Assembly (NCBI GenBank): GCA_022835495.1 | Contig: BQOK01000001.1 | Location: forward strand, 1,550,001 to 1,614,000 | DNA length: 64,000 bases | Source of the DNA: Oscillospiraceae bacterium | GTDB taxonomy: Bacteria > Bacillota > Clostridia > Oscillospirales > Ruminococcaceae | Reading direction: 5' to 3' | Part shown: positions 27,887 to 63,114 of the stretch, one piece after another | Layout: the number at the start of each line of letters is the position of its first letter | How positions within the stretch are numbered: position 1 is the stretch's first letter | Program-made: the position numbers and the translations under genes | The notes under the pieces: generated by a model | The model's database searches: none | Seen by the model: only the letters and a program-made list of their open reading frames with translations | Told to the model about the DNA's origin: nothing

Positions 27887-27930
27887 AGGACAAGTACCGG
27901 TACATCCGTACGGCCCGCGCGGGGGCCTCT

Positions 27931-28755
27931 GTGGAACTTGTATGCCGACTGCTGGAGGTCTCCCGCAGCGGGTACTACGAATGGCTGGGCCGCAAACCCT
28001 CTTTGCGCCGGCAGAAGGATCAGGAACTGAAACGCCGGCTGCTGAGCCTGCACCAGCGTTATCCCGCCCTTGGGCTGGACAGCCTGTATCACCTGATCCG
28101 CCCGCAGCTTTCCTGCTCGCGCAAGCGCATCCACCGCCTGATGAACGAGATGAACATCTCCTCCACGCGCAGGCGTGCCTACAAAGCCACGACCAACTCA
28201 AGACACGCGCACCCCATCGCGCCCAATCTCCTTGCGCGCCGCTTCTCCTTTGACAAGCCAGACACCGCATGGGTCGGCGATATTACCTATATCCCCACCG
28301 GCGAGGGCTGGCTCTACTGCGCTGTTGTGAAAGACCTTTGCACAAAGCAGATCGTCGGCTACGCCTTCTCCGACCGCATCGACACAAATCTCACTCTCGC
28401 CGCCCTCGGCATGGCCGTCCGGCGCCGCAAGCCTCTGCCCGGCCTCATCTTCCACTCCGACCGCGGCGTCCAATACGCCGCCTACGCTTACCGTCAGCGT
28501 CTCGCCAGCCTCGGCATCCGGCAAAGCATGTCCCGCAAGGGCGATCCCTATGACAACGCCGTGGCCGAAAACTTCTTCAGCTGCCTCAAGTGCGAGTGCG
28601 TCCATCTGCGCCATTTCGCCTCAAGGGCACAAGCCATGGCAGACGTCTTCGCTTATATCGAGACCTTTTACAACCCAGTGCGCCCGCATTCCTCTATTGG
28701 CTGGCGTCCTCCGGATGCCTTTGCGCGTGCCTTGTCTGAGCATCCCGCCGCCTGA
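27931..28755 (+). CDS. IS3-family transposase OrfB (DDE integrase domain)
   Basis: The 274-residue part has the HTH_21 region (LLEVSRSGYYEWLGRK) and the rve integrase core. The catalytic residues are Asp in WVGDITYIP, Asp in FHSDRGVQYA and Glu in NAVAENFFSCLK. GTG 27931 is the first start in the frame, but the active enzyme is probably the OrfAB fusion made by frameshifting. Confidence 0.92.
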   Translation: MELVCRLLEVSRSGYYEWLGRKPSLRRQKDQELKRRLLSLHQRYPALGLDSLYHLIRPQLSCSRKRIHRLMNEMNISSTRRRAYKATTNSRHAHPIAPNLLARRFSFDKPDTAWVGDITYIPTGEGWLYCAVVKDLCTKQIVGYAFSDRIDTNLTLAALGMAVRRRKPLPGLIFHSDRGVQYAAYAYRQRLASLGIRQSMSRKGDPYDNAVAENFFSCLKCECVHLRHFASRAQAMADVFAYIETFYNPVRPHSSIGWRPPDAFARALSEHPAA

Positions 28756-28833
28756 GTGTGATACGACAAGATATCCTGCGTTTCTTTCTGTTTTTTCTTC
28801 ATTTTTACTGTCCACGAAACCGGGAAGGGCACA

Positions 28834-49570: not shown

Positions 49571-49705
49571 AAATACACCTGCCGAAAACGGGCGCCGCAA
49601 GGCGAACATCCGCAAGAAAGTTAATAGTTACCATCATTATAATACAGTTTTATCATAATTGCGAGGGCTTTTTGCTAAAAAAGCAAAGAATGTGGGTTGT
49701 AATAT

Positions 49706-49768
49706 TAAATGCGAAAGGACAAGCCCCCTATTTTCGGGGAGCTTCGAGCCTTCCGCATTTATTTTTTT
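49706..49768 (+). terminator. Complex hairpin at the prophage left border
   Basis: TAAATGCG and CGCATTTA close a hairpin with inner AAGG/CCTT and CCCC/GGGG pairings, followed by ATTTTTTTAT. It may end transcription between host and prophage. The exact att site cannot be set from one end. Confidence 0.5.
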
Positions 49769-49812
49769 ATACCACAAACCACGATAAACCGCAATAGAAA
49801 CGGGGTGAAGAC

Positions 49813-50064
49813 ATGGCGGGAAATTATAGGTATCTGGATTTTGAGGATCGAAAGAAGATCGAGGCGTGGCACGCCCGCGGGGATCGCCCGCTTGAAATCG
49901 CCGCGCGACTTGGCGTGCATACCGCGACGATCTACCACGAATTGCAACGAGGCTATACCGGAGAAGTGGACGCGGCGCAACGCGAGGTTTACAGCGCGGA
50001 GCGGGCGCAAGCGGTGGTTCGGGAAAACTTCAAGCGCAGAGGCCGCCGTGCGGTGACAGAATAG
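49813..50064 (+). CDS. Phage HTH protein (HTH_38/IS30-like)
   Basis: The 83-residue basic protein carries YLDFEDRKKIEAWHARGDRP then LEIAARLGVHTATIYHELQRG, a helix-turn-helix like the N-terminal part of IS30 transposases. It may regulate the early genes. It is the first gene of the prophage. Confidence 0.7.
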   Translation: MAGNYRYLDFEDRKKIEAWHARGDRPLEIAARLGVHTATIYHELQRGYTGEVDAAQREVYSAERAQAVVRENFKRRGRRAVTE

Positions 50065-50088
50065 AGCGAAAGGAAAGGTTGTTCAGTA

Positions 50089-50445
50089 ATGAAAAAATAT
50101 CAGTTGGGCGCGCTGACCGTAAGCGACAAGGGCTTACAGGACACGAAAGAAGAAATCGTTATCGAGTTAATCGACCGTATGCAAAAGTATGTTGCAGAGG
50201 GTAAAGCGGCATACGAAAACGGGGATTACACCGAAGAACAAAACTTGAACACCATTACAAACCTTTGCGGGCGGTTTTGCGGGCTTGCCGAATTCCTGCA
50301 AATAACAATGGGCATTGATGTTCGGAGAGCGGACGGGCTTCTTTACACGCAAGAAATGTATAACCATTTCCATTATTGGAAGATGAACCTTGAAATTGAG
50401 ATAGGGAGAGAACGAGAAACGGCGGGAGGTTTTGGCGGTGACTAA
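50089..50445 (+). CDS. Phage protein of unknown function
   Basis: The 118-residue acidic protein (KKYQLGALTVSDKGLQDTKE at the start) is not recognised. Its start has GAAAGG then TTGTTCAGTA, part of the shared start-site family of this prophage. Confidence 0.6.
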   Translation: MKKYQLGALTVSDKGLQDTKEEIVIELIDRMQKYVAEGKAAYENGDYTEEQNLNTITNLCGRFCGLAEFLQITMGIDVRRADGLLYTQEMYNHFHYWKMNLEIEIGRERETAGGFGGD

Positions 50446-50635
50446 TTTTGAAAAGCTGACGCAATCCCCCGCGGAGTTTGGGGCATTCCTTCGGGGATTG
50501 CCGATTTTAGAAGGGCCGTGGGACGACGAATTTCACAAACGATATTGCCGTAAGTGCTCTTCTACGGATTGCACATATTGTCCGCATGAGAAGTTCCGGA
50601 ATAATCCGGAATGGTGGCTAAACCTGAAAGCGTGA
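50438..50635 (+). CDS. Small Cys-rich phage protein
   Basis: The 65-residue protein contains YCRKCSSTDCTYCPHEKF, a likely zinc site. GTG 50438 follows GGGAGG and overlaps the previous gene. Its function is unknown. Confidence 0.55.
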   Translation: MTNFEKLTQSPAEFGAFLRGLPILEGPWDDEFHKRYCRKCSSTDCTYCPHEKFRNNPEWWLNLKA

Positions 50636-50661
50636 TAGGCGCGAAAGGAGCTATTCAAACT

Positions 50662-51102
50662 ATGAAAAAGAAACAAAAGACAACCGCCGAAGTGCAAGCG
50701 GCGATTTTTAGGCGGGAACACCGAAAAAGCCCGTTGCGCGGTGGCGTGAAGCTGACCTTGAAGAAGGCGCGGGAATTGGCTTTGCAGGAATTCGGAACAG
50801 CGAAGGGCATTCAGCAGGAAGAAAACACATTGCCGGACTACTACATAATGCGGCTTGGCAATATGCGCGTGCGGATCGCGCCGGACACCTACGGCGGGAC
50901 GGGGTGCATTCTGATTGAAGTTCGCTTGAGCGGATACGGGCGCGCCTTTCAGCTTCACGATCCGGAAACCCTGCAAGAAGACTTCGAGGCAGAAGAACAG
51001 AGGTTGCGAAAAGAACGGCGCGAAGCCCTGCAAGATTGGGTTGGAACAAACGGGGTTGAAGCGTGCCGCGCAGAGGTCGAAAAGATATGGAACGGGGCGT
51101 GA
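50662..51102 (+). CDS. Phage protein of unknown function
   Basis: The 146-residue charged protein contains RIAPDTYGGTGCILIEVRL and a helical tail. ATG 50662 follows the repeated GAAAGGAGCTATTCAAAC site. It is not recognised. Confidence 0.6.
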   Translation: MKKKQKTTAEVQAAIFRREHRKSPLRGGVKLTLKKARELALQEFGTAKGIQQEENTLPDYYIMRLGNMRVRIAPDTYGGTGCILIEVRLSGYGRAFQLHDPETLQEDFEAEEQRLRKERREALQDWVGTNGVEACRAEVEKIWNGA

Positions 51103-51719
51103 AACACAGGCCGCGCCGCCGTTCGCCTCTTCCCTTCCTACTTCTGGCCGTGGCGGTTGTCGGGTGCGCCTTCGCCGTAGCGGTTGCGGCAGTGGTTCCG
51201 ATGGAGGCCGACAGCCCCGGCGGGCAGGATCAAGCGTTGCCAACGCCTACGCTTGAAGAGGCCGAGCGGGACAAGCTGGACGCGCCCGCGGCGGCAACGC
51301 CGACACCTACGCCCGCCCCATACATACCGGACGAAGCGGAAGTTGAAATGCTGGCGCGCCTGATATGGGGCGAAGCCCGCGGCATTCCTTCGGATATGCA
51401 CAAAGCGGCGGTTGTGTGGTGCGCCCTGAACCGCGTTGACGCGGAAGGCTGGCCGGACACCGTGGCCGAAGTGGTAACACAGCCGCACCAATTCGCCGGA
51501 TATTCGCCGGACTATCCGGCAACAGAGGAATTCAAGGCGATTGCCGCCGATGTGCTGATACGGTGGGAGCGGGAAAAACGGGAAGGCGGCGAGGTTGGCC
51601 GCGTCCTTCCCGCTGAATATGTCTTCTTCACGGGTGACGGAGAAGTAAACCATTTCCGGACGGAATACGAAGGCGGCATGTTTTGGGATTGGAGCTTGAA
51701 AAATCCGTACAGCAGTTAA
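51087..51719 (+). CDS. Cell wall hydrolase (SleB domain), membrane-anchored
   Basis: The 210-residue protein has a basic start and one membrane helix (LPFLLLAVAVVGCAFAVAVAA). A Pro/Thr-rich linker (TPTPTPAP) leads to a SleB/Hydrolase_2 domain (EVEMLARLIWGEARGI, AAVVWCALNRVD, VVTQPHQFAGY). The family cleaves peptidoglycan glycan strands. In the early region and with an anchor, it is more likely a wall-modifying than a lysis enzyme. ATG 51087 overlaps the previous gene. Confidence 0.8.
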   Translation: MERGVKHRPRRRSPLPFLLLAVAVVGCAFAVAVAAVVPMEADSPGGQDQALPTPTLEEAERDKLDAPAAATPTPTPAPYIPDEAEVEMLARLIWGEARGIPSDMHKAAVVWCALNRVDAEGWPDTVAEVVTQPHQFAGYSPDYPATEEFKAIAADVLIRWEREKREGGEVGRVLPAEYVFFTGDGEVNHFRTEYEGGMFWDWSLKNPYSS

Positions 51720-51740
51720 GTGAAAGGAGCCATTCAAACT

Positions 51741-52061
51741 ATGTCGAAGCAGAAGCAGGACAAGCAGGGCGGCGGCTGGCAGTTCCCCCGCCCGCTCGAA
51801 ATTATCAAGTGCAAAGAGGGCAACAAAGAATACATGAAGGAACGCCCCGCACGCAAGCCTTACGGAAGGATCGTCAAGGTGTGCGAATTCAGCCTTGAAG
51901 TCGTCGCAGAGTTTGGCGACGACGACGCGCGGACAGTGTGGAGGCTGGCAAAGCGGGCGGCGCGCGACTTCTTGCGGGTATCGTGGATAAATACGGCCAT
52001 TGTAACCGCCGCGAAAACCGATCGCCCTTATATGGCCGTGATTGTTTACGGCAAATATTAA
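51741..52061 (+). CDS. Phage protein of unknown function
   Basis: The 106-residue basic protein (GRIVKVCEFSLEVVAEFGDD) is not recognised. Its start uses the GAAAGGAGCCATTCAAAC site. Confidence 0.6.
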   Translation: MSKQKQDKQGGGWQFPRPLEIIKCKEGNKEYMKERPARKPYGRIVKVCEFSLEVVAEFGDDDARTVWRLAKRAARDFLRVSWINTAIVTAAKTDRPYMAVIVYGKY

Positions 52062-52074
52062 GGGGGCGGCGGGA

Positions 52075-52617
52075 ATGTCAAACAAAGCGGAGCTTTTGAA
52101 GAAAATAAAAGCCCTTGCCGATCGGGGCGTTGACGGAGAGCGCGAGAGCGCACAAACCCTTCTTGCCCGCCTGATGGAGCAATACGGGATCAGCGAAACC
52201 GATCTTGAAGAGGAACGCCGCGAAACGGCGTGGTTCCGGTACAGTCAAGAAACCGAACGCCGCTTGCTGAACCAGATTATTTACATGGTAACGGGAAGAT
52301 CGGGCTTCGGTTGCGTAGGATCGTATAGCGGGCGCAAGCGGAAGGAAACGGGCGTGAATTGCACAGCCGCGGAACGGTTGGAGATCGAAGCAAATTACAA
52401 ATTCTTCAAGGTTGCTATGGAAGCGGAGCTTGAAATATTCTATACGGCATTTTCAAGCAAAAACCACCTTTTCCCCTCCGAAGACAAAGTGAAGCCGAAG
52501 AGCATTAAAGACCTTACGCCGGAAGAACGAGAAAAGGTTTTGAAAGCTGGCTTGATGATGGAGGGAATGGAGCGGCACACATTACGCAAGGCCATTGCCG
52601 CGGGCGAAACCGAGTAA
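52075..52617 (+). CDS. DUF2786-like phage protein
   Basis: The 180-residue protein begins with LLKKIKALADRGVDGERESA and TLLARLMEQYGISETDLEEE, the DUF2786 pattern. The rest is helical. DUF2786 proteins occur widely in phages with no known role. GGGGGCGGCGGGA precedes the ATG. Confidence 0.65.
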   Translation: MSNKAELLKKIKALADRGVDGERESAQTLLARLMEQYGISETDLEEERRETAWFRYSQETERRLLNQIIYMVTGRSGFGCVGSYSGRKRKETGVNCTAAERLEIEANYKFFKVAMEAELEIFYTAFSSKNHLFPSEDKVKPKSIKDLTPEEREKVLKAGLMMEGMERHTLRKAIAAGETE

Positions 52618-52630
52618 AGGAGGATCACAC

Positions 52631-52927
52631 ATGCAAAGAGCTATTCAAAACACACAGGCGGCCACGCGCCGCCGTTCCCGCCCTCTTCGGGTAGCGGGAA
52701 GCACATTGACGGCGAATGTTGCCTTTGCCGTCCTGAAATACGCCGCCCTTACCGCGGCGGGCGTTCTTCTCTTCCGTTGGGGGCAGGGGTACGCCCTTGC
52801 CGAACGCGGATACAAGGCGATCGGCGGTGAAGCGTTGCTTTTAGGGTTGCCGCTGTTCTGGTATCTGACGGAAACCACGATCCGCGATACCGTGCGGGAC
52901 TTCCGGAAGGGAGGCCGCCGCAAATGA
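52631..52927 (+). CDS. Small phage membrane protein
   Basis: The 98-residue protein has two hydrophobic helices (VAFAVLKYAALTAAGVLLF and ALLLGLPLFWYLTETTI) between basic ends. AAAGGAGGATCACAC precedes the ATG. It overlaps the next gene by four bases. Confidence 0.6.
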   Translation: MQRAIQNTQAATRRRSRPLRVAGSTLTANVAFAVLKYAALTAAGVLLFRWGQGYALAERGYKAIGGEALLLGLPLFWYLTETTIRDTVRDFRKGGRRK

Positions 52928-53586
52928 AGATAAAGAGCATTGCCGCGATATGCAAGAAAAACAAACAGGTTGTTTTGTTCAACCGATACAGCGATAGCGG
53001 CACATTATCGCAGTACATAGGCGACGGAAACGCGGTTTACCCTATTTCCGGCCTTCCGGAGCTGGACGAAGAAAGCATTTTAACGATCTTCGATGTGCCG
53101 GAGAAACAGCGCGAAGACTGGCTTGTGCGGTATCGTGACATTCCGGAGGGGATCAGCTTCGAGGACACCGACGCAACCGAAAAGATCATTGAACAAGGCA
53201 ACCTTTCGATTGTGTATAGCGGAAAGACCTTGAAACCATTGCAGACGCGCCGCGGGCTGGTTTTCATCGAAAGCCGCTATTTGTCGCCCGTTTCAGATGT
53301 GCTTGATGTATTGGAGCTTTACGAGCGGGTAACGCCTTTCGGTGCGCCGTATATCGTAGCAAAAGCGGGCTTCCTGCTTCAAGCGGTAATTATGCCGTGT
53401 GATGTTATAAGCGCGCAATTCGTCCAACGCCTGCAAGAGCTGACACGGCAATGCGCCGTTTCTCTTGACCTTCGGGAACAGGAGCGGGAGCGGCAGGCCG
53501 CCGCAGAGAGCGCGGGGCAATTCAAGGTTGATCCGGAAACGGGGGCAATCATTGAACCGGAAAGCGAGGCGGGCGACGATGATTAG
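52924..53586 (+). CDS. Phage protein of unknown function
   Basis: The 220-residue acidic protein starts MKIKSIAAICKKNKQVVLF and has a Glu/Arg-rich coiled tail (SLDLREQERERQAAAESAG). It is not recognised. It overlaps both neighbours. Confidence 0.6.
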   Translation: MKIKSIAAICKKNKQVVLFNRYSDSGTLSQYIGDGNAVYPISGLPELDEESILTIFDVPEKQREDWLVRYRDIPEGISFEDTDATEKIIEQGNLSIVYSGKTLKPLQTRRGLVFIESRYLSPVSDVLDVLELYERVTPFGAPYIVAKAGFLLQAVIMPCDVISAQFVQRLQELTRQCAVSLDLREQERERQAAAESAGQFKVDPETGAIIEPESEAGDDD

Positions 53587-53869
53587 GACGCAGAGGCATT
53601 CCCGCTTTGTGCTGATGTCGCTTGATGAAATCCGCGCCACGCGGGACATTGTATTGCAGACGGAGGAAACGAAAAGCAATTTTTCCGGATCGGGCAAAAC
53701 GGTTTATATTTGCGAAGTTGTGCGCCCTTGCGATTATCAAAAGGAAACGGACACCGCCGCGGACAAGCTGGCCGCAGAGATCGAGCGGGTAAACGCTGAC
53801 AACCGCGCCTTGCGCCGGAAGATCGAACGCCTTGAACGGGAATTGCAGAAAGCGAGGGCGGGCGAATGA
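53579..53869 (+). CDS. Phage protein with C-terminal coiled coil
   Basis: The 96-residue protein ends in a strong coiled coil (AAEIERVNADNRALRRKIER). Its start and stop overlap the neighbouring genes. Function unknown. Confidence 0.55.
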   Translation: MIRTQRHSRFVLMSLDEIRATRDIVLQTEETKSNFSGSGKTVYICEVVRPCDYQKETDTAADKLAAEIERVNADNRALRRKIERLERELQKARAGE

Positions 53870-54320
53870 ACAAGGCTTTGTTATCCTCTAAAAATATGTG
53901 CTGGTGTACGCCGCAAGACTTCTTCGACAAGCTGAACGAAGAATTTTCCTTCACGCTGGACGCGGCGGCCACAGACAAAACGGCAAAATGCCCGCTATAT
54001 TTCACGCCGGAAACGGACGGGCTTAAATCCTCTTGGAAGGTTGCGGGGGGGGTACGGTATTTTGCAATCCCCCGTATGGGCGCGAAATCGGAAAGTGGGT
54101 TCAAAAGGCATACGAAGAGGCGCAGGCCGGAACGCCGATTGTTCTCCTTATTCCAGCGCGTACCGATACAAGCTATTTCCACAATTTTATATACCACAAA
54201 GCGGAAATTCGCTTTATTCGTGGGCGGCTTCGGTTTACGGACGACGACGGCAACGCCGCCGATCCCGCGCCCTTCCCCTCTATGCTGGTGATTTATAACG
54301 GAAAGGCGGTGAAATCGTGA
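53866..54320 (+). pseudogene. Phage DNA N6-adenine methyltransferase (Dam-type), frameshifted at a G8 run
   Basis: The first frame encodes NMCWCTPQDFFDKLNEEFSF and TLDAAATDKTAKCPLYFTPE. A different frame then gives VFCNPPYGREIGKWVQKAYE with the catalytic NPPY. The break lies in eight G bases (54045-54052). Nine G bases, or a -1 slip, would join the parts into a protein of about 150 residues ending at 54320. It may be a phase-variable gene, a mutant or a read error. Confidence 0.75.
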
Positions 54321-54484
54321 AATACAAGGTTTGCGATCGGTGCGGAAGTCACCTTGACTATGGCGAAACATGCGAATGCGTGAAAGAGGCCGAACAGGAA
54401 GAGAGGGTGCGCAATGCTGAAAATCAGAAGGATCAAAACAGACAAGTTCAAAACCGCGGCGTTTTGGATCGAAAAGCGGGATAA
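54317..54484 (+). CDS. Small zinc-ribbon phage protein
   Basis: GTG 54317 follows AAAGGCGGTGAAATC and encodes 55 residues beginning MKYKVCDRCGSHLDYGETCE and followed by a Cys, a probable zinc site. It overlaps the methyltransferase stop and the next gene. Confidence 0.55.
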   Translation: MKYKVCDRCGSHLDYGETCECVKEAEQEERVRNAENQKDQNRQVQNRGVLDRKAG

Positions 54485-54599
54485 CGAATACATAGCGTGC
54501 CGAACGCTTGTAAACGCCATTTTGGGTATTGCTTCCCCTTCTATTATGAGCAGAGGGCAAGAGGCGTTGAAAAAGGCGTATGAAACGCGCCGAATTTGA
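54414..54599 (+). CDS. Small basic phage protein
   Basis: The 61-residue protein (MLKIRRIKTDKFKTAAFWIE at the start) is not recognised. GAGAGGGTGCGCA precedes the ATG. It overlaps the previous frame by 71 bases; one of the two may not be real. Confidence 0.45.
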   Translation: MLKIRRIKTDKFKTAAFWIEKRDNEYIACRTLVNAILGIASPSIMSRGQEALKKAYETRRI

Positions 54600-54616
54600 A
54601 AGGAGCAGTTCAGACG

Positions 54617-55000
54617 ATGGAAAAACAGGGATTGAACGAGCTTGCCGCGGCGGTACATGAAAATGCCGTTGCGCATGGCTGGTGGGAGCAGGAACGGGAA
54701 TTGCCTGAAATCCTTATGCTTTGCGTTTCGGAGCTTGCGGAGGCTTTGGAAGAGTACCGCGCCGGAAAGCCGAACATTTATTACAATGTCGAAGGCGAAG
54801 AAATACTTTATGCGGACGGGGAGGCGTGCGAAAAGTACGAGCGGCGCAAGCCGGAAGGCGTGGCGGTGGAATTGGCCGATTGCATGATCCGCATTCTGGA
54901 CTATTGCGGGCGCGCCGGAATTGATATTGAAGAGGCAATACGGATCAAGCACGAATACAACAAAACCCGCCCATATCGTCACGGCGGGAAGAAATGTTAA
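54617..55000 (+). CDS. MazG-like nucleotide pyrophosphohydrolase
   Basis: The 127-residue protein has the helical MazG pattern: LMLCVSELAEALEEYRAGKP and VAVELADCMIRILDYCGRAG, with metal-binding Glu and Asp residues, then IEEAIRIKHEYNKTRPYRHG. Such phage enzymes cleave nucleoside triphosphates or alarmones. The start has GAAAGGAGCAGTTCAGAC, one of the repeated sites. Confidence 0.8.
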   Translation: MEKQGLNELAAAVHENAVAHGWWEQERELPEILMLCVSELAEALEEYRAGKPNIYYNVEGEEILYADGEACEKYERRKPEGVAVELADCMIRILDYCGRAGIDIEEAIRIKHEYNKTRPYRHGGKKC

Positions 55001-55797
55001 AGCGGCCGCCCGCCGATGTAAAACCCGTATTGAAATATGCTGGTGCAAAATGGAGAATTGCGGATTGGATCAGCGGGTTTTTCCCACCACATGAAATATA
55101 CCTTGAACCGTTCTTTGGTTCGGGTGCGGTTTTCTTCCGAAAAGCCCCCGCGCGGCTGGAAACAATAAACGACATTGACGGAAATGTTGTAAATCTCTTC
55201 CGCGTATTACGGGAACAGCCGGAACAGCTGGCGGCCTTGATTGAGTTAACACCGTGGGCGCGGGACGAATACTATTCTTCCTATGAAAAAACAGGGGAGC
55301 CGGTGGAAGACGCACGACGCTTTCTTGTTCGGTGCTGGCAGGCATTCGGGACAATGACGGCGGCGCGGACGGGTTGGCGGCATAGCGCAACAGGGCGTTC
55401 GCCTGTTATGCCGCAACAGTGGAACAGGCTTCCGGATAAACTGGAAGCGGCGGCAACCAGATTAAAGGACGCGCAAATAGAAAACATGGACGCGGTACAG
55501 CTGATAAAGAAATATAACGATCCGCGTTGCCTTATTTACGCCGATCCACCATACACGCCGGAAACGCGCCGCAAAAATATATATGCGCAGGAAATGACGA
55601 CAGAACAACACATACAGCTGTTAGAGGCATTAAGGGCGCATAGTGGTTCGGTGGTATTGAGCGGGTATGCAAACGAGATTTACGACAACATGTTGCACGA
55701 TTGGAAGCGGATAGAAAAACGCGCGCTTGCGGAGCGTGGGCAAACAAGAACCGAAATTCTATGGATCAAAAACGCGAAAGGCGGCGAAGAACCATGA
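54994..55797 (+). CDS. D12-class DNA adenine methyltransferase
   Basis: The 267-residue protein has the cofactor motif VLKYAGAKWRIADWI then EPFFGSGAVFF and the catalytic motif IYADPPYTPETRR. It methylates adenine in DNA, probably to shield the phage from host restriction. It overlaps the MazG-like gene by seven bases. Confidence 0.9.
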   Translation: MLKRPPADVKPVLKYAGAKWRIADWISGFFPPHEIYLEPFFGSGAVFFRKAPARLETINDIDGNVVNLFRVLREQPEQLAALIELTPWARDEYYSSYEKTGEPVEDARRFLVRCWQAFGTMTAARTGWRHSATGRSPVMPQQWNRLPDKLEAAATRLKDAQIENMDAVQLIKKYNDPRCLIYADPPYTPETRRKNIYAQEMTTEQHIQLLEALRAHSGSVVLSGYANEIYDNMLHDWKRIEKRALAERGQTRTEILWIKNAKGGEEP

Positions 55798-55985
55798 TGA
55801 ACGAGCAGGAAAAGCCGCATATTCCGGAATTGAAGCCGTGCCGCTATTGCGGCGGCAATGCAGAGATTTTGAAGCGGCGTTTTTCCTATTTTGAGCCGCG
55901 CCCCCTTATTCGGTGCGCGTCGTGCGGGATTGCAACAAGGGAGTTTGAAACGGTGGAACAGGCCGTTGAATACTGGAACAAATGA
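55794..55985 (+). CDS. Lar-like restriction alleviation protein
   Basis: The 63-residue protein has ELKPCRYCGGNAEIL and IRCASCGIATREFETVEQAV, the Lar/zinc-ribbon pattern with the EYWN ending. Lar-type proteins are linked to protection from type I restriction. It overlaps the methyltransferase stop. Confidence 0.75.
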   Translation: MMNEQEKPHIPELKPCRYCGGNAEILKRRFSYFEPRPLIRCASCGIATREFETVEQAVEYWNK

Positions 55986-55999
55986 AAGGAGCTATTCAA

Positions 56000-56917
56000 A
56001 TGGAAAAGACTTTGAAAACCGGAAAGATCGGACAGTTTGGCGCAGAAAGCCGCGTTACATACGGCGGCGTGAAGTGGGTTGTGCTGGACGCACGCCCGAA
56101 TATGTCGCTTTGCCTTGCGGAAGATGTATTGAAGGACGAAAACGGCGAAGTTCGGTACATGGCTTTCGACACGGACAACAAGAACGATTTTGCCGCCTCT
56201 TCCGTCCGCGCTTTCCTGAACGGTGATTTTCTGGAAGAGCTGGCCGCCGCGGGTGCGGACAAAGAAGCATTTGTGCCGATCGTCCTTGACCTGACTTCCG
56301 ACGACGGTTTAGACGACTACGGCACAGACAGCGCAAAGATCGGGCTTATCACGGATCAGATGTACCGCGCGTTCCGCAAAATCATTCCGAAAGCGTCGGA
56401 AGACTATTGGACTTGTACCCCGTTTTCAACCGAGCGGAACGGCTATAAAAGTTTTGTGCGCCTTGTCGACACTTCGGGGGCGTTGAACTACTACAGCGCG
56501 TACTGCGGCCTCCGGGGCGTGCGTCCGCTTTGCGCTCTGAAATCTGATATTTTGGTATCCTATGACGAAGACGAAGTGAACGAGCGCAAGCCGTCGTTCG
56601 GTGAAATGATCGGGAAAGCCCTTGCGGAAGGGCTGAACAAGGCCATTTTCGGGGAAGGTGAAGAGCCGAAGGGCATTCTTGCCGAAGTGGAGGCGCAGGC
56701 CGCCCGCGAAAAGGAACAGAAAGACGAAGAGCAGAAGCGCGCGGACGCGGTGGACATGATGAAGCACATTGCCGCCGCCTTCGATATTCCGGCCACAATC
56801 GGAGAAGGAAAACAGGAAGAGCAGGAAAAAGAAGCAAAACAGCTTTTCGGCTGGTATTCGGAGCTGAAAAAGGCCGGATTTACCGACGCGCAGGCGTTCG
56901 AGCTTATCAAGGGATAA
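56000..56917 (+). CDS. DUF6273-like phage protein
   Basis: The 305-residue protein has YGGVKWVVLDARPNMSLCL, SSVRAFLNGDFLEEL and GLRGVRPLCALKSDI, as in DUF6273 proteins with a C-type-lectin-like or sulfatase-modifying-enzyme-like fold. A charged C-terminal part follows. GAAAGGAGCTATTCAA precedes the ATG. Function unknown. Confidence 0.6.
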   Translation: MEKTLKTGKIGQFGAESRVTYGGVKWVVLDARPNMSLCLAEDVLKDENGEVRYMAFDTDNKNDFAASSVRAFLNGDFLEELAAAGADKEAFVPIVLDLTSDDGLDDYGTDSAKIGLITDQMYRAFRKIIPKASEDYWTCTPFSTERNGYKSFVRLVDTSGALNYYSAYCGLRGVRPLCALKSDILVSYDEDEVNERKPSFGEMIGKALAEGLNKAIFGEGEEPKGILAEVEAQAAREKEQKDEEQKRADAVDMMKHIAAAFDIPATIGEGKQEEQEKEAKQLFGWYSELKKAGFTDAQAFELIKG

Positions 56918-56988
56918 CAGAAAAGGCCGCCCCGCACGATGGGGCGGCCTATCCCCTATACATTATATATAGAAAGGACGGGTTCAAA

Positions 56989-57132
56989 ATGACGGCGTTT
57001 GAATTTATGGTTGCCGCCTTTTATGCGCTTGTCGGCGTGGTTTGCCTTTCCGTGGCGGTTGTGATCGCGTATGCCGTTGTGGTAGGCATTTACAGAGGAT
57101 TGAAGGGCGGTGGACACCGTGGAAGAAAATAA
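56989..57132 (+). CDS. Very small phage membrane protein
   Basis: ATG 56989 follows AAAGGACGGGTTCAAA and encodes 47 residues, mostly one long hydrophobic helix (AAFYALVGVVCLSVAVVIAY), with a basic tail (GGGHRGRK). Confidence 0.6.
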   Translation: MTAFEFMVAAFYALVGVVCLSVAVVIAYAVVVGIYRGLKGGGHRGRK

Positions 57133-57529
57133 AACCTTCAACGAAGAAGTCATTATTGAAATGGCGCACACGATGGGTTTTGACCTTGCGCACGCGTGCG
57201 CGGCGGCGGCTGACGCATTCGCCCGCGGCGTGGCCGATGGCTTCGCCGCCTATGCGCAAGAGCTGGCCGCCGAAAACGGAGGCGTTGAGCTGGTACACGA
57301 TGAAGAAGACGAAGAACCGGAGTTGAAAACGGATATTCAGGATTGCCGCCGTTGCTGGTGCGACACATGCGGCAGACTGGAAGAATGCGAAAAGCACCGC
57401 GACGGCACACAGCCGGACGGCTTGCGCCCGCTTCCGTGTATCGGGTGCGTGAATGGCCTTCGGTTCAAGCCGAAGGAAGAAGAGCCTTGCGAAGAGTACA
57501 CGGAGGCCGCGGGCTTCAATAACGGATAG
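57119..57529 (+). CDS. Cys-rich phage protein
   Basis: The 136-residue acidic protein ends with a Cys pattern (DCRRCWCDTCGRLEECEKH, then LPCIGCVNGLRF), a likely zinc-binding region. GTG 57119 or GTG 57110 may be the start. A terminator follows. Confidence 0.6.
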   Translation: MEENKTFNEEVIIEMAHTMGFDLAHACAAAADAFARGVADGFAAYAQELAAENGGVELVHDEEDEEPELKTDIQDCRRCWCDTCGRLEECEKHRDGTQPDGLRPLPCIGCVNGLRFKPKEEEPCEEYTEAAGFNNG

Positions 57530-57536
57530 AAAAGAA

Positions 57537-57572
57537 GAAGGCGGCTTGCGTTGCCTGCAAGCCGCCTTTCCC
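57537..57572 (+). terminator. Terminator of the early phage genes
   Basis: AAGGCGGCTTGC pairs with GCAAGCCGCCTT around a short loop and is followed by TTCCCCC. Confidence 0.65.
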
Positions 57573-57606
57573 CCTTCGCGTCGCCGCGAAAAGAGCTATT
57601 CAAACT

Positions 57607-57720
57607 AACGACAGTATAACACCGCGGCGGCAGAATGTCAAGAAACGCCGGAACACGGCGTATTACGGGCTTGTAATGGGTATTAACACATGGACGGAAA
57701 AGCAGAATTCCGGAAGTGCT
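57607..57720 (+). other. Non-coding stretch before the long hairpin
   Basis: No gene is seen here. It holds a small CGCCG/CGGCG hairpin near 57643 and AT-rich stretches that could include a promoter, but no clear -35/-10 pair. Confidence 0.4.
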
Positions 57721-57872
57721 GGTTTGTATTCAATTCCCCGTCGCCTGCTTTATCAGGATCACGGAGGCGGCAAGCTGTCAAGGGTGCGACAGCACCGCGA
57801 AAGCGGCTTGCCCTTGATGGGTTGTTGCCGGAGTGATAGAAGCAGGAAAGGCGGCGGGGATAAATACAAACC
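57721..57872 (+). ncRNA. Long structured hairpin, candidate RNA or replication origin
   Basis: The 152 bases fold into one long stem. GGTTTGTATT pairs with AATACAAACC, TCCCCGTCGCC with GGCGGCGGGGA, TGCTT with AAGCA and TATCA with TGATA. Then GGCGGCAA pairs with TTGTTGCC, TCAAGGG with CCCTTGA, and CCGC-GAAA-GCGG caps it with a GNRA loop. About 50 base pairs are formed with small internal loops. It lies directly upstream of an HUH Rep gene. No open frame explains it. Confidence 0.55.
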
Positions 57873-57967
57873 TTCCGGCCTTGCGTGTTCAATTCCTTTG
57901 AGCCTGCTTCCCCCTTTAGGGGGACGGGAGGGGGTGAAACCTTTACCACGAGCAGGGAGGAAACAAC

Positions 57968-58882
57968 ATGCCGTACAACAGCGCAAAATATGAATTCCTC
58001 TTTGACCTTTCCGGAGAGAACACCGAAAGGGCGTTTGATCGGTTTCGGCACAGGAATGTTTTTCGTTATCGTACCCGCACGATCAAGGCGGGAAATGTGC
58101 TTGAAGTTGAGATATTCCCGATATGGAACACGCAAAACGAGGTTCGAGAGGCAAAGAAGCACACAACACGGGAAGCACAAAAGAACCTGAATGATAAAAA
58201 CGCAAAAAAGAAGTTCATTCGGAAGATCAATGCGAATTTCACGGAAGAAGACCTTTGCGTAACGCTGACATATTCAAACGGCTTTGTTCCGGACGAAGAA
58301 CAGGCGCGCCGCGATATTCGGAATTACCTTCGCAGGGTGCGGGAGTATCGCCGGAAGAATGGCCTTCCAGAATTGAAATACGCCTATGTGATTGAGTTCG
58401 GCGGGAAAGATGGGCGGCGCAAGCGTGTTCACCATCATGTCATAATGTCCGGCATGGATCGGGACAAAGCCGAAGCCCTTTGGAATGGCCGCGGGTACGC
58501 AAACGCCCGCCGCCTGCAACCGGACGATTACGGATTAGAAGCCCTTGCGCGCTATATGACGAAGGAGCCAAACGGCGGCAAACGGTGGGCGGCAAGCAAA
58601 AACCTTGTTGATCCGAAAATCACGGAGGCCGACACCAAAATAAGCCGCCGCAAGGTGGAACAGATGGCCGAAGACTTCGAGGCGAAACCCGCCGCGATCT
58701 TCGCCGCGCTTTTCCCTGAATACAGCTTCAACGAATGCGCCGTGCGGCATTCGGATTTTGTGGCGGGCGCGTACATATACGCAAAATTGCACCGGAAGGC
58801 CGCGCCGCCGCAGAAGCAGAAAAAGAAACGGAGGGTACGCAATGAACACAACGGAAATGATGGTAATTTGCCGCGAAGTTGA
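57968..58882 (+). CDS. HUH-type replication protein
   Basis: The 304-residue protein has EEDLCVTLTYSNGF, the metal-binding histidines in RVHHHVIMSG and a candidate catalytic Tyr in LARYMTKEP. This is the layout of rolling-circle Rep proteins related to filamentous phage G2P and plasmid Rep. It would nick an origin, perhaps in the structured region upstream. ATG 57968 follows GGGAGGAAACAAC. Its last bases overlap the next gene. Confidence 0.8.
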   Translation: MPYNSAKYEFLFDLSGENTERAFDRFRHRNVFRYRTRTIKAGNVLEVEIFPIWNTQNEVREAKKHTTREAQKNLNDKNAKKKFIRKINANFTEEDLCVTLTYSNGFVPDEEQARRDIRNYLRRVREYRRKNGLPELKYAYVIEFGGKDGRRKRVHHHVIMSGMDRDKAEALWNGRGYANARRLQPDDYGLEALARYMTKEPNGGKRWAASKNLVDPKITEADTKISRRKVEQMAEDFEAKPAAIFAALFPEYSFNECAVRHSDFVAGAYIYAKLHRKAAPPQKQKKKRRVRNEHNGNDGNLPRS

Positions 58883-59105
58883 CCGAACAACGGGCGAAAT
58901 AGCGGTTTACCGGATTGAAACCGAAGTAACCGAAAGTCTGATTTTCAAATTGAGGCTTCGCGCGCGCCTGAACCCCGAATTGCAATACTTTGTCACGACA
59001 AAAGCGCATTATGAAGGCTTCGGGAATACGATCACGGCGGTTTTGAAGCGAAGAACCGTAACGCCCGCGGCCATTGCACGCGTTGGCGGGATCGTCCAGC
59101 TTTGA
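58842..59105 (+). CDS. Phage protein of unknown function
   Basis: The 87-residue protein (MMVICREVDRTTGEIAVYRI near its start) is not recognised. GGAGGGTACGCA precedes the ATG. It overlaps the Rep gene end. Confidence 0.55.
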   Translation: MNTTEMMVICREVDRTTGEIAVYRIETEVTESLIFKLRLRARLNPELQYFVTTKAHYEGFGNTITAVLKRRTVTPAAIARVGGIVQL

Positions 59106-59118
59106 GGGGGTGCGCGCG

Positions 59119-59397
59119 GTGGTAGAAAATCCGGAGATTGGCGGGCAATATTGGTTTGTTACGGACATTTGGGAACGCTTCTGCCCTGTCCCCGTGACAA
59201 TCGTTGCCGTGAACGAAGAATACGGCGCATTCCTTGTCCGTTGGGATATTGGCGAAAGCGAATACTTCGAGCAATACGAAGGCGTGTGGCCGAACGAGCT
59301 ATACGAAACACGGGCAGGCGCGGCGGCAGAATGTCGAAGAAGAAACGCCTTGCCGTGTGGATATGTGGAAAAGGCGGTGAATTATCTTGAAGAATAA
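59119..59397 (+). CDS. Phage protein of unknown function
   Basis: The 92-residue protein contains PVTIVAVNEEYGAFLVRWDI. GTG 59119 follows GAGGGGG. It overlaps the next gene by 11 bases. Confidence 0.5.
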   Translation: MVENPEIGGQYWFVTDIWERFCPVPVTIVAVNEEYGAFLVRWDIGESEYFEQYEGVWPNELYETRAGAAAECRRRNALPCGYVEKAVNYLEE

Positions 59398-59785
59398 CGC
59401 CCCTTCCCTTCCGGTTCCAACGGAGAGCGTGGAACAACAATGCCTTTTCAGGTGGGCGGCATTTCAAAGCGGGCGTTTCCCTGAATTGGCGTTGCTTTAC
59501 CATGTGCCGAACGGCGGGAGCCGGAAGAAAGCAGAGGCCGGACGCTTCCGCGCCGAAGGCGTGAAGGCGGGTGTGCCGGATTTGTGCTTGCCCGTCGCCC
59601 GCGGCGGTTTTCACGGCCTTTACATAGAGCTAAAGCGGCAGAAAGGCAGTAAAACAAGCGACGATCAAAAAGCGTGGTTGTCAAACCTTGAAAAACAAGG
59701 CTATTTTGTGGCCTTGTGCAAAGGGTGGGAGGCCGCCGCAAAGGTAATTACAGAGTATTTGACAATGGGAGGCGAAGAAGGTTGA
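59387..59785 (+). CDS. VRR-NUC domain nuclease
   Basis: The 132-residue protein has the VRR-NUC pattern LLYHVPNGGSRKKAEAGRF, GVKAGVPDLCLPVARGG and LYIELKRQKG, with the catalytic Asp and ELK residues. These nucleases act on branched DNA in phage replication. TTG 59387 follows AAGGCGGTGAATTATC. Confidence 0.88.
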   Translation: MKNNAPSLPVPTESVEQQCLFRWAAFQSGRFPELALLYHVPNGGSRKKAEAGRFRAEGVKAGVPDLCLPVARGGFHGLYIELKRQKGSKTSDDQKAWLSNLEKQGYFVALCKGWEAAAKVITEYLTMGGEEG

Positions 59786-60222
59786 AAAAGAAGCGGTTTT
59801 TGAAGCTGGTTATGTCTTACGGTATCCAGCGGGACAAAGCGGCGCGCATGGCCGCCCGCGTTGGCAAATTCGGATTGTATGAAGCCCTGTTTTTGTCTTT
59901 GCGCCCGTCGCTGGCATTCTGGCAGATGGGCGCGGCGGTGCGCAAGGCTGGCCGGACGATCCGGCAGGCCGCCCGCGCTTTTGACGATATGTTCGCCGCA
60001 ATGGGGACAGCCCTTGCCGCCTGCTTCTCCCCTGCTTTGCGCGGGTATGTTGACGACGCGAAGGAGCGGGAACAGAAACAAGCGGATTTTTCGGCGGCGG
60101 GAAATATGTTCTTGCCGTCAACGCATGAAATCATAGCGGGCGCACAGCCCGAAGAGGAAAACACCGCGGCGCGCTGGTGGGTAAAGACACCAAACCCGAA
60201 TTACGGCAAGCCGCAGGCATAA
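59782..60222 (+). CDS. Phage protein of unknown function
   Basis: The 146-residue basic protein (KKKRFLKLVMSYGIQRDKAA) is helical and not recognised. TTG 59782 overlaps the previous stop and follows GGGAGGCGAAGAAGG. Confidence 0.55.
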   Translation: MKKKRFLKLVMSYGIQRDKAARMAARVGKFGLYEALFLSLRPSLAFWQMGAAVRKAGRTIRQAARAFDDMFAAMGTALAACFSPALRGYVDDAKEREQKQADFSAAGNMFLPSTHEIIAGAQPEEENTAARWWVKTPNPNYGKPQA

Positions 60223-60239
60223 GAAAGGCAGGGTTAAAC

Positions 60240-60470
60240 ATGGCGAAAATGTCTATGCGTGTGATTTTGAAGAGCGGCGCGGAATTTACGGTGAAATGCG
60301 ATAAATTCACGCTGAAAAGGAACGGGCTTGAACAGGTAACGGGATACAATATCAGCGGGATCACCGAAAACAAGCCCGTGTATCTGGATTTTGACGAAGT
60401 GGCCGCGATCGTCCGTGTATTTTCGGACGAAGCGGACGCGCCGCCCGAAGATGGCGGCAACGAAGAGTAA
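60240..60470 (+). CDS. Small phage protein
   Basis: The 76-residue protein (MRVILKSGAEFTVKCDKFTL) looks like a small beta-rich domain with an acidic tail. AAAGGCAGGGTTAAAC precedes the ATG, a variant of the shared start site. Confidence 0.55.
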   Translation: MAKMSMRVILKSGAEFTVKCDKFTLKRNGLEQVTGYNISGITENKPVYLDFDEVAAIVRVFSDEADAPPEDGGNEE

Positions 60471-60491
60471 ACGGAAAGCGAGGGTTCAGAC

Positions 60492-61118
60492 ATGGGCAAG
60501 AAAAAAACGGGCTTGATTACTGACGAAGTGCGGGAGCTGATAAACGAGGTCGCGCGGGAAACTGCTTCTATGGCCTATATTGACGGCATGGGCGGCGAAG
60601 TAAATTATTTCCGCGCAATGGAAAGTTTGCTTTTTAATTATAAAAAGCTGGCCGCGCTGGTGGCCGATTATGAAGCCTATACACATGTGGAGCTTCAAGG
60701 CCGAAGCGCGAGTATTTCAAGCTATTCCCCTTCGAGCGGGTACACATACCGCACGGAGGAAGATATACTTGACGAAATGAAGCGGGATAAAATCATATCT
60801 TACCACAGGACGCGGGCGCGCTTTGAAGAGATTGACCGCGTTGTAAAGCTGTTTGCAGAGCGAAAAGAATTCCATGTGATCCGCATGTATTACTTCGGAG
60901 AGGACGCGCAGGGCAACGAGCGTCCGACAGGCGCGGAGCCGTACACATGGGAAGCCATAGCCGCAGAGCTGGAGGGAATGGGGTTGATCCGTGACGCGAA
61001 GAGTGCGCGCAGATGGCGAAACAAAATCGTTAATGACATGGCCGTGTGCATGTTCGGGAAACCCGCGGCGGTTGGCGTGGGTACATACCGGAAGGAGCGG
61101 GACAAAGCAACGGATTAA
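60492..61118 (+). CDS. Sigma-like/ArpU-like late regulator
   Basis: The 208-residue protein has ETASMAYIDGMGGEVNYFRA and a C-terminal helix-turn-helix like sigma region 4 (YTWEAIAAELEGMGLIRDAK, then SARRWRNKIVNDMAVCMFG). Proteins in this position usually turn on late genes. The terminase region begins 170 bases on. Confidence 0.65.
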   Translation: MGKKKTGLITDEVRELINEVARETASMAYIDGMGGEVNYFRAMESLLFNYKKLAALVADYEAYTHVELQGRSASISSYSPSSGYTYRTEEDILDEMKRDKIISYHRTRARFEEIDRVVKLFAERKEFHVIRMYYFGEDAQGNERPTGAEPYTWEAIAAELEGMGLIRDAKSARRWRNKIVNDMAVCMFGKPAAVGVGTYRKERDKATD

Positions 61119-61228
61119 AACAGGCCGAAAAATGCCCGTTTCGCGCCCGTTTCGCGCCCTTGTGTGTACCGTCCATATATGCTATAATTATTACGCTGAT
61201 TAAATGCAAATAAACAGCACACTTCACA

Positions 61229-61262
61229 AGCCTTCGCGGGTTCGCCCGTGAGGGCTTTTTTT
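61229..61262 (+). terminator. Terminator before the late genes
   Basis: AGCCTTCGCGGG pairs with CCCGTGAGGGCT around a short loop and is followed by TTTTTTTATT. Confidence 0.75.
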
Positions 61263-61286
61263 ATTGTCCGAAAGGAGGCGGCAGGC

Positions 61287-61604
61287 GTGAAGGCATGGGC
61301 TGAACAGTTCTATAATTCGGACGCGTGGCGCGCGTGTCGCGAAGGCTTCTTGCAATCGAAAGGTTATCTTTGCGAACGATGTTCCACGCCCGACAATCCG
61401 GTTGTTGCGAAGATTGCACACCACAAAATCTATTTGACGAAGGAGAATATAAACAATCCGTACATTGCGCTTTCATGGGATAACTTGGAGGCACTTTGTC
61501 AAGATTGCCACAACAAGGAACACCACAGAGGCGAACGGAAGAAGCGTTATTCTTTCGACGCAAACGGAAATCTTGTATATCCCCCCCATTCGCCGCCGAA
61601 TTAG
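61287..61604 (+). CDS. HNH endonuclease
   Basis: The 105-residue protein has CERCSTPDNPVVAKIAHHKI, a DNLEALCQDCHNKEHH motif and a zinc ribbon, the phage HNH layout that assists the terminase. GTG 61287 follows AAAGGAGGCGGCAGGC. Confidence 0.9.
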   Translation: MKAWAEQFYNSDAWRACREGFLQSKGYLCERCSTPDNPVVAKIAHHKIYLTKENINNPYIALSWDNLEALCQDCHNKEHHRGERKKRYSFDANGNLVYPPHSPPN

Positions 61605-61712
61605 GGAGGGCGAAACACCGAGGGCGGGAGGTTAAAAAAACTCCGCAGGCGCGCGCATAACGGGTGTACCCGTGGGGGGTGTGGTTGACGGTGCAGAAAG
61701 GGGGCGTTTTTT

Positions 61713-61779
61713 GTGGCGACAAAGAAGGAGCTTACGAAAGAACAGAAGATCAAAAAAGAGATTGCCCGATTAAAGCGGG
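61713..61779 (+). pseudogene. Terminase small subunit, 5' fragment (split by IS3)
   Basis: GTG 61713 starts MATKKELTKEQKIKKEIARL-KR and is cut by the second IS3 copy. Removing the IS and one CGGG copy joins it in frame to 63115, giving 117 residues. Confidence 0.82.
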
Positions 61780-61857
61780 TGTGCCCTTCCCGGTTTCGTG
61801 GACAGTAAAAATGAAGAAAAAACAGAAAGAAACGCAGGATATCTTGTCGTATCACAC

Positions 61858-62682
61858 TCAGGCGGCGGGATGCTCAGACAAGGCACGCGCAAAGGCATCC
61901 GGAGGACGCCAGCCAATAGAGGAATGCGGGCGCACTGGGTTGTAAAAGGTCTCGATATAAGCGAAGACGTCTGCCATGGCTTGTGCCCTTGAGGCGAAAT
62001 GGCGCAGATGGACGCACTCGCACTTGAGGCAGCTGAAGAAGTTTTCGGCCACGGCGTTGTCATAGGGATCGCCCTTGCGGGACATGCTTTGCCGGATGCC
62101 GAGGCTGGCGAGACGCTGACGGTAAGCGTAGGCGGCGTATTGGACGCCGCGGTCGGAGTGGAAGATGAGGCCGGGCAGAGGCTTGCGGCGCCGGACGGCC
62201 ATGCCGAGGGCGGCGAGAGTGAGATTTGTGTCGATGCGGTCGGAGAAGGCGTAGCCGACGATCTGCTTTGTGCAAAGGTCTTTCACAACAGCGCAGTAGA
62301 GCCAGCCCTCGCCGGTGGGGATATAGGTAATATCGCCGACCCATGCGGTGTCTGGCTTGTCAAAGGAGAAGCGGCGCGCAAGGAGATTGGGCGCGATGGG
62401 GTGCGCGTGTCTTGAGTTGGTCGTGGCTTTGTAGGCACGCCTGCGCGTGGAGGAGATGTTCATCTCGTTCATCAGGCGGTGGATGCGCTTGCGCGAGCAG
62501 GAAAGCTGCGGGCGGATCAGGTGATACAGGCTGTCCAGCCCAAGGGCGGGATAACGCTGGTGCAGGCTCAGCAGCCGGCGTTTCAGTTCCTGATCCTTCT
62601 GCCGGCGCAAAGAGGGTTTGCGGCCCAGCCATTCGTAGTACCCGCTGCGGGAGACCTCCAGCAGTCGGCATACAAGTTCCAC
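61858..62682 (-). CDS. IS3-family transposase OrfB (copy 2)
   Basis: The 274-residue sequence is the same as that of copy 1, with catalytic residues in WVGDITYIP, FHSDRGVQYA and NAVAENFFSC. It is probably made as an OrfAB fusion. Confidence 0.92.
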   Translation of the reverse strand: MELVCRLLEVSRSGYYEWLGRKPSLRRQKDQELKRRLLSLHQRYPALGLDSLYHLIRPQLSCSRKRIHRLMNEMNISSTRRRAYKATTNSRHAHPIAPNLLARRFSFDKPDTAWVGDITYIPTGEGWLYCAVVKDLCTKQIVGYAFSDRIDTNLTLAALGMAVRRRKPLPGLIFHSDRGVQYAAYAYRQRLASLGIRQSMSRKGDPYDNAVAENFFSCLKCECVHLRHFASRAQAMADVFAYIETFYNPVRPHSSIGWRPPDAFARALSEHPAA

Positions 62683-62726
62683 AGAGGCCCCCGCGCGGGC
62701 CGTACGGATGTACCGGTACTTGTCCT

Positions 62727-63047
62727 CTATGGTTTGGAAAGTATGCCGACGGATTTTTTTAGGATGTCAATGACCCCGTCTTTCTCTTCAAGCTTCTTGC
62801 GCAGTGCTCGAATCTCCGTCTCCAGTTCGCGCAGGCGTCTGGCGTCGCGGTTTTGGCGGTCAGCTTGCCCCGGCGATGGTGCGCCCGCCGCTTTCAGCCA
62901 GCTGCGCAGCGTGTCGATGCAGATGCCGAGTTCCGCGGCCACCTCCCGGCTGGGCCGCCCCTGCTCGGTGACCATCCGCACTGCCCCCGCCTTGAAGGCC
63001 TCATCGTAACGCGGCGGCGCTGGGTGCTTTCGTTCTTTGGTTGACAT
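62727..63047 (-). CDS. IS3-family transposase OrfA (copy 2)
   Basis: The 106-residue sequence is the same as that of copy 1 (SREVAAELGICIDTLRSWLK). The seven-A slip site lies near its end on the minus strand. Confidence 0.92.
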   Translation of the reverse strand: MSTKERKHPAPPRYDEAFKAGAVRMVTEQGRPSREVAAELGICIDTLRSWLKAAGAPSPGQADRQNRDARRLRELETEIRALRKKLEEKDGVIDILKKSVGILSKP

Positions 63048-63114
63048 TTTTCATTACCCCTTTCCATTATACAGATTGTTTTTCTGTCCGGCAAATCGGG
63101 TATGGGGGCACGGG

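Follow-up and report, generated by a model that had tools for sequence, protein, structure and literature searches.

A conserved hairpin beside the predicted Rep nick site of an Oscillospiraceae prophage: a candidate single-strand origin with a Y-shaped apex that recurs in other mobile elements

The DNA analysed, hereafter the window, comprises 64,000 nucleotides of an Oscillospiraceae bacterium (assembly GCA_022835495.1, contig BQOK01000001.1, positions 1,550,001 to 1,614,000 of the forward strand) and includes a prophage with a long hairpin at 57721-57872 upstream of a gene coding for a replication initiator (Rep). A first-pass annotation, made from the letters alone, had called the product an HUH Rep, which agrees with the profile matches listed below, and had placed the hairpin after a terminator and directly before this gene. 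The hairpin does lie between a terminator-like stem and Rep, but "directly" is inaccurate, as a conserved nick-site-like sequence (57670) precedes it. The features of the locus are as follows.

57538-57568: terminator-like stem, read by eye and folded on the other strand
57645-57661, plus strand: small stem-loop ACGCCG-GAACA-CGGCGT just 5' of the nick motif, read by eye, probably part of the double-strand origin (dso)
57670-57685, plus strand: CTTG^TAATGGGTATTA, predicted dso and Rep nick site by likeness to ACTTG^ATATT of phiX174, with the putative nick after 57673
57721-57872, plus strand: whole hairpin, from fold statistics and covariation, predicted single-strand origin (sso)
57721-57730, plus strand: 5' arm of the outer stem (helix 1), partner 57863-57872, with compensated variation among relatives
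57736-57745, plus strand: CCCCGTCGCC, partner 57850-57859, unchanged across the eight aligned relatives
57777-57818, plus strand: Y-shaped apex (three-way junction), common to inoviruses, plasmids and elements resembling integrative and conjugative or integrative and mobilizable elements (ICE/IME-like)
57777-57784 and 57811-57818, plus strand: apex stem GTCAAGGN/NCCTTGAC, read from the folds
57785-57794, plus strand: mini-hairpin 1, TGC-GACA-GCA, with a GNNA loop (GACA)
57795-57806, plus strand: mini-hairpin 2, CCGC-GAAA-GCGG, with a GNNA loop (GAAA), abutting mini-hairpin 1
57807-57810, plus strand: unpaired junction CTTG, found as CTTG in 24 of the 28 Y motifs retained for loop analysis
57814-57842, plus strand: TTGATG, 17 nt, TAGAAG, with TGA before TAGAAG, a possible weak -35/extended -10 match within the hairpin duplex
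57888-57896, plus strand: TTCAATTCC, direct repeat of 57729-57737, read by eye
57968-58882, plus strand: HUH-type Rep, PF23343 (REP_ORF2-G2P) and phrog_3584 (replication initiation protein), from profile matches

The stretch, coordinates and hairpin given by the first-pass annotation were right. RNA folding of 57700-57900 yielded -94.8 kcal/mol on the plus strand, where shuffled sequences average -67.2 (z -6.1), and a weaker z of -4.9 on the minus strand, and DNA folding of 57722-57870 yielded z values of -6.7 (plus) and -5.7 (minus); the plus strand, on which G-U pairs are present, has the more stable fold both as RNA and as DNA. The apex is not the end of a single stem with a GAAA cap, as drawn before, and consists instead of a three-way junction with two mini-hairpins and unpaired CTTG, hereafter called Y.

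The Rep protein search resulted in 26 relatives, 16 of them loci in viral contigs and 10 in genome contigs (loci are designated by L numbers), and the Rep of the window has a 100% identical counterpart (304 aa) on a Pseudoflavonifractor scaffold, from which the source genome is probably close to that genus. A hairpin of the same build is located upstream of Rep in nine of the 26 relatives (L001, L002, L003, L005, L006, L022, L023, L024 and L025). In the alignment of eight hairpins, which are mutually related so that the counts are not independent, 10 of 56 pairs are changed on both sides and 96.6% of the cells pair; none of 500 shuffles reached the observed values, and when the partner was shifted by 1-3 columns at most three such pairs were left. 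The covariation check suggested with the original prediction thus revealed compensatory changes in a conserved fold, and for this reason the idea of a decayed mobile element is unsupported. Among phage records, a distant DNA search matched part of the hairpin in two, MT839055 and OR777946 (the latter classified as Caudoviricetes), where it lies 3' of a different Rep-like gene (weak PF23343 match, E 1.7e-4, below the curated cut-off) and 5' of an N6/N4 DNA methylase gene; L037 and L041 likewise show the order dso, hairpin, methylase start.

The nick-site motif C(T/C)(T/C/G)GTA(A/T)N(A/G)(G/A)GTATTA occurs exactly once, on the Rep strand, in all 26 relatives (52-611 nt upstream of the aligned Rep start) and in the window (57670), with no match on the opposite strand of either; as it was compiled by eye from those very loci, these figures describe conservation and not prediction. 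The motif is similar to the origin of phiX174, ACTTG|ATATT at annotated position 4306. The hairpin starts 48 nt 3' of the predicted nick on the same strand, the displaced plus strand being predicted to run from 57674. In L032, a similar CTTGTAAATGTGTAAAG is located between the Rep gene and the hairpin, and the order dso-hairpin-rep of the window is replaced by rep-dso-hairpin-methylase in L032 and L033. The order is thus constant relative to the dso and variable relative to Rep, which indicates that the hairpin goes with the dso and not with a gene. The gap between the motif and Rep measures 533-611 nt in L007 and L026 and is filled by hairpin-less sequence.

Two relatives without a Y hairpin, L012 and L016 (Rep 46% and 48% identical), possess a different long hairpin between the dso and Rep, carrying the only DnaA-box-like words of those loci (TGTGGATAA...TTATCCACA and TTTTCCACA). 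These hairpins (L012:2912-2940 and L016:2929-2937) are likely a different second-strand start site. No such words were found in the 330 nt before Rep in the other 24 relatives, including the hairpin-bearing L001, L005, L022 and L023; the window was not counted. A DnaA-box hairpin is the signature of the single-strand initiation site (ssi) of the R6K ABC primosome, which the L012/L016 hairpins resemble, and a slot holding either a Y hairpin or a DnaA-box hairpin fits a function in starting the second strand.

The Y apex is not confined to this phage family. The search pattern GTCAAGGN(6-36)GCTTGNCCTTGAC matched 49 stretches in viral contigs, 15 of which had a two-hairpin score of at least 5, and 19 were counted as Y motifs after one (L065, score 5) was discounted and five with scores of 3 to -1 (L083, L090, L039, L044, L085) were added by eye on the basis of tandem G-A pairs or loops, although these five score below the best control. 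The control pattern, with one stem pair swapped, matched 28 stretches, none scoring 5 (best 4, inside a 492-residue frame). The remaining 30 matches were rejected as simple inverted repeats (e.g. L069, L073) or, mostly, as lying within reading frames, and the pattern matches L049-L051 (coding-like) and L052 (simple inverted repeat) are also without a Y. A structural Y descriptor misses the by-eye members L039, L047, L066, L083, L085 and L090.

The neighbours of Y were compared in 70 open reading frames (ORFs) within 3.5 kb on 16 Y contigs, L044, L097 and L100 being set aside from the 19 because they nearly duplicate others, and in 77 ORFs on 16 of the 30 contigs without an accepted Y, using the 25 commonest of 50 and of 51 families, respectively. 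Zot accounts for five Y ORFs and ArdA for two, neither being among the 25 commonest control families, while PF23343, Rep_trans and MobA/MobL jointly account for four Y ORFs, with one control ORF for Rep_trans in the same listing. A Rep, relaxase or Zot is present in seven of the 16 Y contigs (L058, L076, L083, L092, L098, L101, L103). Five of the Y contigs encode Zot proteins and represent inoviruses (L058, L076, L083, L092, L103), and tblastn detected Zot relatives in L097, L100 and, weakly, L101. The initiators beside Y include PF23343 (L058, L092), Rep_OBD (L076), Rep_trans (L101 and, weakly and below cut-off, L083) and MobA/MobL (L098), so its ligand should not be one particular Rep.

A 49-nt Y query taken from L092 and run against 72,556 plasmid records produced matches in 52 of them (E up to 1), and all 12 records examined, picked for variety among 40 listed of the 52, contain Y, with 10 distinct cores. 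They include pBBR1, the parent of widely used laboratory vectors, pZMO1A and pYQ39 (both Rep_1), pA29J1, pAK51, small MobV plasmids, a MOBF conjugative plasmid, a Phaeobacter plasmid with Y near ssb, and Bradyrhizobium, Salmonella and Mycobacterium plasmids; the Salmonella and Mycobacterium matches are weak by BLAST (E 6e-3 and 0.2), yet they fit the descriptor. MOBP plasmids are likewise among the elements with Y. In Phaeobacter, the stem is GTCAACAC/GTGTTGAC, with two pairs changed with compensation and CTTG retained. Among 5426 E. coli genomes, the same query hit 33 places, one in each of 33 genomes, all plasmid-borne and none chromosomal, and it found nothing significant in phage records. 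An initial distant plasmid search gave 11 records, of which H3 and H5 contain Y, H6 lies among chromosome-like genes and the other eight look like chance. ICE/IME-like members with a long outer hairpin are L035, L045, L047, L074, L079 and the plasmid record OY725853 (L104), and CCCCGTCGCC recurs in all six of these IME-type hairpins; the outer stems around Y differ between element types. In L079 and OY725853, the hairpin is flanked by a ParB-domain gene before and ardA after it, with a DNA methylase gene also present in L079, which recalls conjugative leading regions; L074 has a shorter ArdA match.

The loops were analysed with a descriptor that fixes no stem, loop or junction letters, though the loci themselves had mostly been collected by stem letters. 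From 30 distinct matches with a C(T/G)(T/C)G junction, 28 Y motifs were kept, L106 and a minus-strand match in L140 being omitted for their unrelated stems. A C-GNA-G or C-GNNA-G loop is present in 45 of the 56 mini-hairpins (23 of mini-hairpin 1 and 22 of mini-hairpin 2), all four GNA and six GNNA loops occur, and 37 of 46 loops are GNA or GNNA with any closing pair once repeated loop pairs are removed. For comparison, background loops on 4-bp stems in the same loci (Y loci included) fit in 359 of 3553 cases when C-G-closed and 821 of 11459 with any closing pair; the nominal p of 6e-29 for the enrichment is overstated since the members are related. Agreement is poorer among the IME-type hairpins, where L104, L074 and L079 contribute six of the 11 exceptions. 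DNA mini-hairpins that combine a GNA or GNNA loop with two or more G-C pairs are described as extraordinarily stable (PMC4686876). Since the opposite strand would read TNC or TNNC, the loops name the folded strand, which is the plus strand here. A likeness of some loops to TAGCG, the CS-6 element of ssoA, was noticed and not counted.

The hairpin strand equals the strand of the rolling-circle Rep in all 13 loci compared (window, L032, L058, L092, L097, L100, L103, L076, L083, L101, L134, L135, L138), which are not independent and were judged to represent about eight independent families. It is consistent with a Y hairpin folding, in an orientation-specific manner, in what is presumably the displaced strand.

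The fold with its compensatory changes, the recurrence of the apex in elements with a single-stranded stage, the variety of initiators, the GNA/GNNA loops, the linkage to the dso, the strand match and the replacement in the slot favour an sso. It is therefore somewhat probable that the hairpin is the sso/ssi of a rolling-circle temperate tailed phage, read by the host and independent of Rep, with both the function and the host factor inferred. Rep would nick the plus strand at 57673/57674, a position predicted from the motif; the plus strand would be displaced and, once single-stranded, would fold into the hairpin, which starts 48 nt in from the new 5' end; the Y-shaped DNA apex would be recognised by a conserved host priming system, be it RNA polymerase, primase or a primosome loader, and this system would then lay the primer for the second strand. 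Y may be read by recruiting RNA polymerase or, just as well, by recruiting a primase or primosome. The chances are about even for the broader proposal that an undescribed DNA three-way junction (GTCAAGGN-mini-hairpin-mini-hairpin-CTTG-NCCTTGAC with GNA/GNNA loops) serves as a portable signal for starting the second strand in Bacillota, Pseudomonadota and probably Actinomycetota, in filamentous phages, rolling-circle tailed phages, small plasmids and conjugative elements, acting in its DNA form, not as RNA, and read by a conserved host factor.

Other explanations have to be considered. A structured RNA, either a leader or a small RNA transcribed from the plus strand, would account for the stable, covarying plus-strand fold with G-U pairs and for a position upstream of rep in the window, of the methylase gene in L032 and of ardA in L079 and L104. 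However, neither the window nor its relatives contain an Rfam 15 family at gathering score on the hairpin, all matches being weak, sub-threshold, off its strand or place, or tRNAs; no plus-strand promoter-like site was found in 57560-57980 (the terminator scan also began at 57560 and did not cover the stem at 57538-57568); the downstream genes vary; the loops are of the DNA-stabilising type; and Y recurs in inoviruses and rolling-circle plasmids and, by one query, not on E. coli chromosomes. The RNA of a new class proposed by the first-pass annotation is hence regarded as unlikely. A single-stranded DNA (ssDNA) promoter of the Frpo kind, used in the first place to express early genes from a strand that enters or is displaced and priming only as a by-product, seems improbable to a similar degree. 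The 3' arm reads TTGA in all 35 members examined, partly because the search pattern fixes it (L055, outside the 35, has TTTA), window-type hairpins show TGA-TA(A/G)AAG 17-19 nt after TTGA, as an RNA-polymerase site might, the mean -10 match is 2.9 of 6 against 2.1 in shuffles, and the ArdA and methylase genes beside some members recall leading regions (PMC11541004). Transcription from the folded plus strand would nevertheless head to the dso and away from the same-strand rep, methylase and ardA genes, and many members lack a -10-like hexamer.

Among the three guesses made originally, a rolling-circle origin recognised as a hairpin comes nearest, except that Rep is probably not what recognises it: the nick motif is present in 26 of the 26 relatives, the hairpin in nine, and the apex occurs beside varied Rep and relaxase families. 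For the same reason, a part of the Rep recognition site or a leading-strand replication terminator, as the proximity to the nick-site motif and rep might suggest, is very unlikely, the motif standing without a hairpin in 17 of the 26 relatives and the identical apex type beside unrelated initiators. A protective or structural ssDNA element (packaging or export signal, exonuclease block or folded recombination site, for instance one like XerCD/attC) would agree with the occurrence of Y in inoviruses and with the nuclease resistance of GNA mini-hairpins (PMC4686876); it is quite unlikely, Y being found also in plasmids and ICE/IME-like elements, which do not have a single packaging system in common.

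Several observations weigh against the hairpin being an sso and against Y as a general signal. Most loci were found through a pattern fixing GTCAAGG and CCTTGA, so the invariance of these letters is partly a selection effect. The hairpin was not found in 17 of the 26 Rep relatives, including L004 with a Rep 78% identical, when the 330 nt upstream were inspected and the whole loci were scanned with the descriptor and a lenient pattern; this pattern, which recovers 23 of 23 known members, gave weak matches in six of the 17, in none of which a pair of mini-hairpins was seen by eye. By the same two means no Y was detected in phiX174 and Pf1, nor in pTA1060 (L145, 8000 of 8737 bp) or pUB110 (L146). 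The relation to relaxase genes is inconsistent, Y being on the strand opposite to MobA/MobL (L098) and MobV (L136, L137) and on the same strand in L139, and in pRGI01809 (L056) its orientation does not match that of the sole gene. Nine of the 16 Y viral contigs (L035, L039, L062, L066, L068, L074, L079, L085, L090), many of them fragments, show no Rep, relaxase or Zot in the scanned ORFs and no tblastn match with eight Rep, Zot and Mob queries; ArdA is encoded in L074 and L079 and a serine recombinase in L085, and L039 has ordinary tailed-phage structural genes by eye.

By kind, the hairpin would rank among the single-strand origins; a Y sequence family of such breadth appears to be new. The nearest tested parallel is sso1 of ICEBs1, which lies downstream of oriT, is orientation-specific and lowers ssDNA (PMC4595007); the hairpin of the window similarly lies downstream of the predicted dso. 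The sso elements of Gram-positive rolling-circle plasmids are likewise ssDNA hairpins whose orientation is tied to the displaced strand, as proposed here; however, pTA1060, whose sso is among those compared in PMC4595007, and pUB110 have no Y apex, whereas the Y sequence spans distant hosts. Frpo and the ssi of F-like plasmids are, like Y, folded ssDNA in transferred strands with a primer or promoter role, but the new Frpo candidates of PMC11541004 were sought via -35/-10 and UP elements, and many Y members have no recognisable -10. In the primosome assembly site (PAS) of phiX174, G4-type and R6K ABC-type ssi, a hairpin recruits the host primosome or primase, although phiX174 itself is without Y. 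No description of the Y motif was found in the open-access literature, where the apex letters retrieved only unrelated titles and pBBR1 with single-strand origin no pertinent title; most subscription literature lay outside the search, and an old description in a single plasmid is possible.

Some further features surround the hairpin. A strong sigma-70-like promoter (TTGACA, 17 nt, TATACT, with a preceding TG; 57641-57613, minus strand) runs leftward from beside the dso into the terminator-like stem, predicting a small RNA of roughly 70 nt with a possible role in copy control or priming, and a like promoter (17-nt spacer, TG) is found 33-38 nt from the nick in 13 of the 26 Rep relatives. Copies of TTCAATTCC flank or enter the hairpin (57729-57737 and 57888-57896), and in relatives both change jointly by eye (TTTAATTCC, TTTATTCC); L004 has a single copy of such a repeat and no hairpin, for which an insertion of the hairpin between repeats is one possible cause. 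The search for further copies, also proposed with the first annotation, revealed one more identical hairpin in the genome, inside a duplicated prophage segment (window 49688-63112) whose second occurrence is 100% identical. A 1331-bp, by eye IS3-like stretch of the prophage (about 61780-63110) has an identical reversed copy at 27503-28833 and another in L021.

Only a modest number of model plasmids and phages have known second-strand origins, and such sites are difficult to recognise from sequence. If the proposal is true, a shared ssDNA motif would allow them to be annotated on a large scale and would mark the displaced strand, and the host priming factor and host range would become directly testable, pBBR1 being among the plasmids that carry Y.
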